From NCBI RefSeq assembly GCF_002288925.2, contig NW_022098004.1, forward strand, positions 11,570,177 through 11,634,176: 64,000 nucleotides of DNA. Direction: 5' to 3'. A model generated the notes under the pieces. The model did not search any database. It had not been told where the DNA came from and saw nothing but the letters and a program-made list of their open reading frames with translations. Below, one piece after another: positions 484-13,890 of this stretch. Positions within the stretch are counted from its first letter, which is position 1, and each line of letters begins with the position of its first letter. The translations under genes were made by a program, and so were the position numbers. The stretch is from Delphinapterus leucas (lineage: Eukaryota; Chordata; Mammalia; Artiodactyla; Monodontidae).

Positions 484-751
484 CTTTTTTTTTAAACATC
501 TTTATTGGAGTATAATTGCTTTACAATGGTGTGTCAGTTTCTGCTTTATAACAAAGTGAATCAGTTATACATATACATATATCCCCATATCTCCTCCCTC
601 TTGCGTCTTCCTCCCTCACACTCTCCCTATACCACCTCTCTAGGTGGTCACAAAGCACCAAGCTGATCTCCCTGTGCTATGCAGCTGCTTCCCACTAGCT
701 ATCTATTTTACATTTGGTAGTGTATATATGTCCATGCCTCTCTCGCGCTTT
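484..751 (-). mobile_element. L1 3' end fragment (LINE-1)
   Basis: A poly-T start followed by the reverse complement of CTCCAATAAAGATGTT and the conserved cetartiodactyl L1 3' tail (CCCACTAGCTATCTATTTTA and GTGTATATATGTCCATGCC). The same tail is read in the other direction at 36793-37078. It is 5'-truncated at about 751. It spans the left duplication breakpoint, so its last 25 bases recur alone at 7301-7325. Confidence 0.85.
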
Positions 752-2916
752 GAGCTCTTTTAACACAGAATTTCGTACAAAGTTAGGCAAAGATTAGGAG
801 ATCAATGTATTCAAATCTATTCATTGATTGATTGATTTTTTTTTTCACTAATTTACACAACAAGTGATGTGCCACACTGGGTGCTGAGTGCTGGAAATGC
901 AAAGATGAGAAAGATAAACCTTTTCCCATGAAAAAGTTCAAAATGTATAGGGGAGAGAGAAATGTAGCCTTCTAACACTAAAGTACCTTAATCTGGTACC
1001 ATATAAATGTACTAAAAGGAGGAGTTGATGGGTGGAGGAACGGGTCGCTTTTAGTTGTGTGATCATGAAAGTATCCTACAAGAAAGTGCATTTCATTTAT
1101 TGGTTCATTCACTCTTTCCCTCATTCATTCATTCATTCGACAAACATTTAGTAATTGCAGGCAACATGCCAGGTACTGTTAAGATTGGGGATACCGGGAT
1201 GACAGGTTGGAAGGTAGAGCCTCTACTTCCAGGGTGCTCACACGCCAAAGGGGAAAACAATGAGTAAACCAACAAATGATAGCACAGTCTAAAAAACAAT
1301 GTTACCTAGCCAGGTCATTGTGATCGATGCTGTTTGTCTTTACATTGATTGGTTTGGACTAGTTAAGGATATCATTCACGTCACTATTGCACCCTGAGCA
1401 CCTCACCTTTAATAAGTAAGTGAAAAAGACAAATAGCACTATCTAGGTTTCGCTTTCCTCAAGCTTGAACCACGAAAAACAATTAATTGTCATAGTTAAG
1501 ATTAAAAAATTTTTTTAAATATCAAAAACATACATCTTACTTAACACGGCTAAATATTAGCACGAATTAGCCGCCATTTATCTAGTTTAAAATCCAATGC
1601 TTATTTCGAAAAAAAGAGTAAAAGATAACCCAGACCCCTAGTTAAAATAAATACCTCATTAAGCTTTCATTGCTATTGGTTCATAATTACTGTTTATTTT
1701 ATCCCTACTTTGAATGGTTTTCATGGAACTAATTCAACGATAATATCCAATTTTTCTCGCTCTTATACAGAACTTCAACTTGCTTTGGATTTTAATGCAG
1801 GTTTTCTTAAAAATGCTTATAGGAAACTTCTTCCAGCCTGACTGTTGTCCTTGCTTGAGAACAAGCAGGGCTACATCTTCTCAATTCAATTTACATCAAT
1901 AAAAATGCACTGGATGACCACCAAGTACTTTAGAGATACAAAGGTGAGTAAATCACAGTCCATTTCTTCAACGACTGTATCATGTATAACGGACTTCTAG
2001 GAAGTTTCAAAAGAGAGGCCATTGACTGATCAAACAGAATTACCATTATGTGCCCAGATAGGCCTCCAAATTATCTGTGTGCCAAGAATGATGCTTCATT
2101 AAGTTACTCATTTTCTCTGGTTCCAGCAGCTCAGTCAGAGGAAAATTAAAAACCAAAAAAAACACAGTTCTTTGATTGCAGTATGTTGTCCCTGGCCCAC
2201 ATAAGATCCAAACCAATACTTTTCTACACTAAAAAACGAAATCCTTTCATCACCACCAAGCAAACTTCCTTTAGCTTCCCTCTTCCGTTGGGTGTTTACA
2301 TACCATCAGTCAACTACAAATACCACCCACTTTATTACAAACGGCCTCCTTGTCAGTCTCCCTTACAGGAGCTGTGCCCTGTCCACAAAACACAGCATCT
2401 TACACACTTGAAAGACTAGAGAATGGTTTATATATAAATCATATATGTGTGTGTATATATAAAATACATATATAAATATTCCAAATATTATACATAAAAA
2501 CCTCCATATACTAGAGAGATTAATTCATAAATCTCAGTCATCAGAAGAAATAAAAGCAATAAATTCTTTTCAACAAACTTAAAGACAATGCAAAACTACT
2601 ATGCTATTGAACAAAACTTAAAATGTTTTTATATAGGTTTAGTTTCTTTCTTTAACTTCCACACTATTTAGTGCACTAATGAGATTCTTTTTTCAATTTC
2701 TGAGGACTCTGCGAAATAAGTTTACCTTTAGTATTTTCATAAATTAAACCATAAAATGTATTAGAAAATGAATAGTAATACATTTTCTCTTGAAAAATGT
2801 TTTCTAAGTAATTCTGAAGATTCTGTTTCTAAACTTAGTTTAAGAGATTCGTAAACAGCATGTAGGGATGACTCTACTTCTCTCTCTAGGCTATGAATTC
2901 TGTTGAAGAAACATAC
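752..2916. other. CNTNAP4 intron, copy A, mostly unrecognised
   Basis: AT-rich intron downstream of exon 3 in gene sense. Around 1090-1290 a (CATT)n stretch followed by text such as ATGCCAGGTACTGTTAAG resembles an old mammalian interspersed repeat, but I cannot name it. A TA/TG-rich tract lies near 2430-2475. The same content recurs at 7326-9490. The longest open frames here are short and show no family resemblance. Confidence 0.6.
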
Positions 2917-3110
2917 CCAGATACTGTCCTCTTGTCGATACTGTTTCCAGTTCCTGCCACTGTCACTGAACATTAGGAGGTAGCTGGTCACCCAGTTGGA
3001 GCTCCCATATCCCCCTTGGGTGGCCACAGCGGTGATCTCCATTCTCTCTCCAAGGTCAATCTGCAACCACTGGTATTTGTTTGACACAAGTGGAGACCAG
3101 CCACCAGCTC
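2917..3110 (-). CDS. CNTNAP4: CNTNAP4 exon 3, copy A (duplicate)
   Basis: This is the second copy of the 194-nt discoidin-domain exon, with the same acceptor (CACAAAAG just above 3110) and donor GTATGT at 2916-2911. Splice sites and open frame are intact, so nothing in the sequence marks it as decayed. Because the exon has two bases over a multiple of three, joining copy B to copy A would shift the frame of copy A. The shifted frame meets a TGA at 2990-2988, after 40 codons. Functional protein therefore needs only one of the two copies per transcript. A CHR-2 SINE lies about 110 bp upstream in gene sense (3220-3427). It may be a real duplicated exon or an assembly duplicate. Confidence 0.88.
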
Positions 3111-3219
3111 CTTTTGTGAAAAGAGAAAAAGGAGAAATGAGCAAAGAATTCGTTAAAAATCTGTTAGTGAACTATCAATCCCAGTAAGACTGTTCCTCTA
3201 TGGAACTTAAGAAAGTCAA

Positions 3220-11465: not shown

Positions 11466-11817
11466 TGTTACTTACAGCTTCAAAGAAGAGAAGACTGCAA
11501 GGAAGGGCCAGTAGAGGGAAATGCCACCACAGAAAGGGTGGCGAGATGAAGCCGTAGAGGGCAGCTCACGTATGGCAAGCGGGGTGGGGTAAGCTAAGTT
11601 TTGTGAGCTCCAGGGAAGAGGGGCTGTGTTCGGGTGTCTGGCCCTGGCTCCAGGATGATCAGGGTCGATGCATAGTGGCCACAGAGGGTGTGAGCGCAAT
11701 AGAAGAAGGGGTTGGGTTGGGACATAATCGGCTGCTCAAGAAGGGGACTGACCAGCCTCTAGTCAGGGCCTCAAACTGAGTTAAGGCAGCATCTTTTTTA
11801 AGTTTTATATTCTAACA
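11466..11817. mobile_element. Possible LTR-like element (copy B)
   Basis: Duplicate of 4892-5243 inside copy B. Same termini and same uncertainty. Confidence 0.3.
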
Positions 11818-13760
11818 GTCTCCTCCCTTGACAGCATCACACTAACTCCTGATTGTATTCGGGTATGAGTCCCGAGATTACTTACTACATTGTCCTTAGA
11901 ACTACATCATTTTTTTTCAAATTTCCTTCTTTCTTGGAGGGAATCATTGTTCAAAAGTGTCTTCCACTTTGTACATCAAAAGTACAATGCTCTCCTTATT
12001 GATCCAAAATGTTGATACATTGTGCAATTTTTACTGGTGTGTTTTTACTTTTCATTTTCTCTGTAGTTGCCCCTGAAGAACCCGTGGTTTGGGCTAGTGA
12101 CCTGGATGAGTGGAGTTCTCTTGGTCACCAATACCATCTACCATGTTTAGGTTAGAGTGAAAAATTCTTGTATTTTAAATAAGAGGGCTTGTTGGGTAGA
12201 CATGGGCCCTGGCTGCATTTTGGGTGTCTTGGGGTCATTGACCTAGCATGGCTTTGCTGTCCACAAAGGGCACTGCTCATGCAGCCTGTCTGCAGAGCAA
12301 CAAGAGGCACAGTGCTCTTAACTAGGACACAGCAGTGTCCCCCATATTGTTATGATATATAAATGGGAATCAGCGGTTCCCAATGGATGTAGAAAAGACA
12401 GTAGCAATAGGGGTTGGGGAATCTCAGGATTTGGCTACCTGACAGTAGGGTCAACCTTCTTCTCTAGAGTTAACAATAGACCATGTCTTTGAAGTATGGG
12501 TACATGATGGGAGTGGTGAGTGGGTAAAAACTTCCCTCTACTGTCCTATCTAATTTTACAATTCTGCCTCAGGGCCTAACAAAAGTTTGGAAGTTGAAAG
12601 TCTTCCAGGGTCTGATGTTCACCAAGCAGCCTTGGTCCATCTGCAGCATAGCTGCATATGTGTTACAACTGCCTATCTCTGCATTTTTATCATTTTTTGC
12701 ATAGAAAAGTTGGAAAAGAATGAATGAAGTGCCCCCAGCCAGCCATCATCTTTACCTGCAATTTCTATGTTTGGAATTTTATCTACATCACCTTATACCT
12801 TTGAGAAAATACTGAGTTATTTTGTTTCTTGCTCTTTCTAGTTAATTTTAATGGTCTAAAGTCAGTAATGAAGATACATTTTTAATACAGAATTGCATAA
12901 TGTTTCTGTGGTACTTTGACATTCCTTTATAGATCAGTATTTAAAACGTGAACACATGTGGGAAGCACAGTGGAAAAAAAAAAGAATCAGCGTAAGTCTA
13001 GTGAGTTAAGATTGGATCATCAGTTCTCATCAGGAGCAAGTTCTCACTGACCGCTCCCTCTTCCAGCATCACTCACCATTACAGCTGCACTAACCAACTT
13101 GAAACATCCGCAATTAATTGGCCTTGAACATTTCAATTTCTCACCTGTGGCGAAAAGGTACTACTGATATGCTAAATCAAGTGATACCATTAACGAGGTA
13201 CACCAATAAAGTAATGGAAATTCAGATGCTCCTAGGCTTTACCAAGTAATTTCAGCAAGATAAGTCAGCCATAGGGAATCCAGAGATTCCTACAGGGTTT
13301 TAAACTGTGTGGCTGTATAGACACACGTGGTATAAGTGTGTGATGGAGTGCTATGATTGTTCTAATTTTAAAACAAATGTTGAATAGTGATATGGAAAAT
13401 GCAAATATACAGATATAGATAAATAGACATGGATATAGAACTCAGCACACTTTGGTAGTGCCAGCCTATGATGACATGTAGGGACAATAGTGACATGAAA
13501 TGAAAACGTAGCTGCAGCTGAGGTTAAGCTACCCCAGGCGTAGGGTCACCGCCAAACCACCTAGCCTTCTGGAGACATCATATCGTCATAGTGTTTACTT
13601 TTTGAATGGAGAAAATGATGGCTAACTCCAGCAAGTTGTTAACCCTGAAGTACTATAAAATGAAATATAGTGAACTTCTAAAATTTACTAACTAAAACTT
13701 TCAGTTGGTGGTCAAGTATTATTTGTCCTTAATGATTAGGACATTTAATATGTCGACAGA

Positions 13761-13890
13761 GTCAACATCATGGTAGGACAACGTGAGACGAATGACCATC
13801 TTCCCATAACCCCATCTATTCCATGGTCAACATCATGGTAGGACAACGTGAGACGAATGACCATCTTCCCATAAGCCCATCTATTCCATG
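13761..13890. repeat. 65-bp tandem repeat, two full units
   Basis: Units at 13761-13825 and 13826-13890 are identical except at the 50th base (C in the first, G in the second). The second unit is complete, so this is the original right border of the 6574-bp duplication. Confidence 0.95.

Follow-up and report, generated by a model that had tools for sequence, protein, structure and literature searches.

A near-identical 6.6-kb tandem duplication spanning a CNTNAP exon in the Delphinapterus leucas assembly: young allele or assembly mistake

When two almost identical copies of an exon-bearing segment lie side by side in an assembled genome, does the duplication belong to the animal or to the assembly? 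The 64-kb stretch of Delphinapterus leucas DNA analysed here (the window) raises this question with a 6.6-kb duplication that is either a recent gene-damaging variant or an assembly mistake. Two adjacent direct copies of 6,574 bp lie head to tail, copy A at 727-7300 and copy B at 7301-13874. Their ungapped alignment contained three mismatches and no gaps, leaving 6,571 of 6,574 positions identical, a level that rules out chance similarity; the sharp end of identity at either edge and a longest identical run of 4,649 bp likewise exclude it. Comparison of the window with itself by blastn (matches of at least 120 bp starting before 14500) returned the pair as a single match of 6,575 bp at 99.95%, and a repeat finder reported only two direct families of at least 200 nt in the window: the left end of the duplicated pair and an interspersed repeat present at eight places. 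Positions 726, 7300 and 13874 are all A, so the breakpoints are ambiguous by a single base. The duplication within the window is therefore confirmed with exact coordinates, in agreement with the limits and the three differing sites given in the original prediction, which had also named what we consider the right set of alternatives (a very recent duplication, a segregating copy-number variant or two haplotypes placed in tandem). Three features went unmentioned there: a 65-bp tandem repeat in which the right breakpoint falls, the CpG setting of every difference and the frame in which the exon is read. At roughly even odds (about 0.5), we infer a real and very young tandem duplication allele, most likely segregating, carried by the sequenced animal; this figure and the weights behind our wording of the alternatives are judgements and were not computed.

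The duplicated span is predicted to run from intron 2 through exon 3 into intron 3 of CNTNAP4. Each copy holds a complete exon of 194 nt on the reverse strand, at 2917-3110 in copy A and 9491-9684 in copy B; the two exons are identical, and both have a polypyrimidine-AG acceptor (...TTTTCACAAAAG) and a GTATGT donor. Upstream on the same strand, an exon of 111 nt at 49677-49787 carries a GCAG acceptor and a GTAAGT donor. In transcript order this exon 2 is followed by exon 3 of copy B and then by exon 3 of copy A, with exon 4 presumably located past the window's left edge. The 65 residues of exon 3 matched the Disc domain of human CASPR2 (5y4m; E 8.2e-25), and the protein of exons 2 and 3 together matched residues 6-105 of the same structure (E 2e-40; 100/101 residues). 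Among solved structures, CASPR2 was the only Caspr protein in the best 60 of 62 matches for exon 3, and the only one in 16/16 matches for exons 2 and 3. Exons 2 and 3 together encode the N-terminal discoidin domain, and by these matches the protein is a member of the CNTNAP (Caspr) family; the expectation of a complete, splice-competent CNTNAP exon in either copy thus held at the level of the family. The paralogue is probably CNTNAP4, and the exons probably its second and third. In the literature on CNTNAP4 in cetaceans, whales and dolphins, exon 3 appeared in no title or abstract opening.

What such an allele would do is set by the reading frame. Exon 2 stops one base into a codon and so fixes the frame of exon 3, which is entered in phase 1 and left at a codon boundary (phase 0). 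A single copy of exon 3 keeps the frame; because the exon is 194 nt long with these phases, inclusion of both copies produces a frameshift and a TGA stop that lies 120 nt into the second copy and 74 nt short of its end. The same length rules out a longer in-frame protein. Nonsense-mediated decay is the expected outcome of a premature stop of this kind, and a real duplication is therefore predicted to be a loss-of-function allele unless one copy is skipped. A transcript with both copies would be frameshifted, would stop in the second and would likely be degraded, whereas skipping of either copy would restore the normal message. The idea that the duplication changes the exon structure of the gene stands in one respect, in that the exon would be repeated if the duplication is real, but the predicted consequence is a frameshift and an early stop, not a modified adhesion protein.

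The three differences between the copies bear on age. In copy A/copy B order they lie at 1530/8104 (A/G), 1991/8565 (G/A) and 6641/13215 (C/T), and all three are transitions in CpG context (CpG against TpG or CpA). CpG sites mutate fast, and the duplicated block contains 87 of them in the union of both copies; if CpG rate ratios of 8-15 are assumed, 3/3 differences would fall at such sites with a probability of 0.6-2.4%. The pattern fits germline deamination, whether the differences are allelic or arose after duplication, and is as expected from germline mutation, not from random read error; on long-read errors at methylated CpG, no usable literature was found among the matches listed. Divergence between the copies was 4.6e-4 (95% CI 0.9e-4 to 1.3e-3). 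Equal dinucleotide lengths, previously offered as a sign of near-identity, proved an almost baseless argument and were dropped: the block holds no pure run of at least five units for the ten dinucleotides tested (CG and GC were left out) and only three homopolymers (10, 15 and 10 nt) at thresholds of at least 9 for A/T and at least 8 for C/G, so that equal microsatellite lengths carry little information.

So few differences, all of them at CpG sites, indicate a very recent origin, which argues against a duplication that is common or fixed in this cetacean. Under that explanation, one copy of exon 3 would be skipped regularly or obligatorily, or CNTNAP4 function would be impaired or lost. Intact splice sites in both exon copies are in keeping with fixation, but the frameshift on double inclusion and the mouse data weigh against it: a Cntnap4 knockout was designed by deletion of exon 3, and homozygous knockout males of nearly 12 weeks had movement deficits (PMC7053186). 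The study of such homozygotes shows that mice can survive loss through this exon. We regard fixation as highly improbable.

The low divergence can also be read in another way. At 0.046%, it is similar in magnitude to heterozygosity in mammals, as would be the case if an assembler or a gap-filling step had put two haplotypes of one locus end to end. One contig would have stopped at the unresolved exit of a 65-bp repeat, and a second would have begun inside an interspersed repeat. The right end of the duplication supports this route. A tandem repeat of two 65-bp units at 13761-13892, the top score (257) of 46 tandem repeat finder rows for the window, holds that end; a single base distinguishes its units (13810 C, 13875 G), and the last base of the duplication, 13874, immediately precedes 13875. 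An exact 49-bp segment is common to both units, and its second copy also ends at 13874. Alignment of the copies places the corresponding repeat of copy A at 7187-7300, cut by the joint 49 bp into its second unit. With two full units in copy B and one unit plus 49 bp in copy A, the small repeat was probably already present before the large duplication. When the window was reduced to one copy of the duplicated block (57,426 positions; in-window repeats only), 13874 was among the 4 right-branch positions at K=48 and at K=49, the 8 at K=41, the 35 at K=31, the 76 at K=25 and the 163 at K=20, a match that had been spotted before testing. An assembly graph would break contigs at such points, and the right end is where a contig stopped by an unresolved repeat could be expected to finish. 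A fork stalled in the tandem repeat is another fit, although the exact base would then go unexplained.

The left end lies within or beside an interspersed repeat fragment at 485-755, of which 485-716 matches 37007-36796 at 86.6%; the fragment is probably L1-like, and its part past 716 and its right edge are approximate. Such a position suits the start of a second contig, but the left end coincided with no branch start at K=20, 25, 31, 41, 48 or 49, in a count of in-window repeats that does not cover the genome-wide copies of this interspersed repeat. That the left end falls at no counted branch point argues for a real allele.

The joint itself is gapless at 7300/7301, the 40-mer across it is single in the window, and there is no N anywhere in the 64 kb. 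The two sides share one base (A), and the 600-bp flanks of the outer breakpoints have in common only a 10-bp match (E 0.44). The joint is accordingly non-homologous, and non-allelic homologous recombination (NAHR) was rejected, the long homologous blocks at both ends being absent. Direct copies set side by side and joined precisely, with junction microhomology within 0-5 bp unaccompanied by long flank homology, as observed here, are what is expected of a non-recurrent tandem duplication. CNV junctions in mouse embryonic stem (ES) cells had 0-5 bp of homology, with means of 2.0 bp in wild-type cells and 2.1 bp without Xrcc4, and the 1-bp joint falls within this range of induced CNVs (PMC3447954). 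Large, transcribed, late-replicating genes have been linked to CNVs (PMC4315293). A real allele would have been created by a non-homologous or template-switch joint, its right end lying in the small tandem repeat and its left end in the interspersed repeat.

Set against one another, these observations leave an assembly artefact nearly as likely as a real duplication. In favour of the allele are the gapless joint in a window free of N, an ordinary junction of 1-bp microhomology and no flank homology, and a divergence of a few substitutions and no indels, at which assemblers would normally collapse the copies. Three SNPs in 6.6 kb should be too few to hinder the merging of haplotypes; graph assemblers with a k short enough to break at 49-bp repeats would usually merge such bubbles, and long-read assemblers would not be expected to break there at all. 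In favour of the artefact, a 1-bp joint could also result from a random butt-join, an allele carrying exon 3 twice is predicted to do damage, and false exon gains are a known class. Ko et al. (PMC9516828) found such errors most often accompanied by gaps and in regions where heterozygosity is raised, and they name an allele-specific tandem duplication within one contig as a true case. "Most often" is the wording of that source, so the missing gap between the copies counts against an artefact without deciding the matter.

Several other repeats occur in the window. A SINE-like repeat lies inside the duplication at 3194-3427, recurs in copy B at 9768-10001 and has further relatives in the window; the family occupies eight places (3194, 9768, 14958, 26174, 35492, 46335, 51040 and 63406), two of them inside the duplication. 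Members other than the duplicated pair are 65-88% identical to the reference, and there is a further partial match at 43350-43491. The family looks like a cetacean tRNA-derived SINE. Directly behind a SINE, 35726-35814 (+) matched Rfam SNORA2/SNORA34 at 72.2 bits against a cut-off of 70 (E 1.4e-10), with 89 bases against a 137-position model; this may be a chance match or a decayed copy. A long, degenerate TA-rich tandem stretch runs from 54494 to 54926.

The duplication is ordinary in kind and by itself reveals no new biology, and its interest lies in what either outcome would entail: (i) if real, it would be a structural allele, with loss of function predicted, in a synaptic adhesion gene of a wild mammal; (ii) if false, it would be a gapless case of false exon gain and would introduce an error into the annotation of the gene. 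Real or false, the frame arithmetic warns annotators against modelling a longer protein.

Like non-recurrent tandem duplication CNVs, the duplication is head-to-tail, kilobase-sized and gapless, has 1 bp of microhomology and lacks homology between its flanks, but one of its ends coincides with the boundary of a 49-bp local repeat, and it is known here from assembly sequence. Out-of-frame duplications of single exons within genes are known, such as alleles of DMD, and our case resembles these in its intact exon in tandem and a length not divisible by three; it differs in concerning a CNTNAP family gene in a whale, seen so far in genomic sequence. The false heterotype duplications and false exon gains of Ko et al. 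(2022; PMC9516828) differ from the present case in that it is without an assembly gap and its divergence looks low, not raised, yet they share with it the adjacent near-identical copies, the gain of one exon and a divergence between copies similar to that between alleles.
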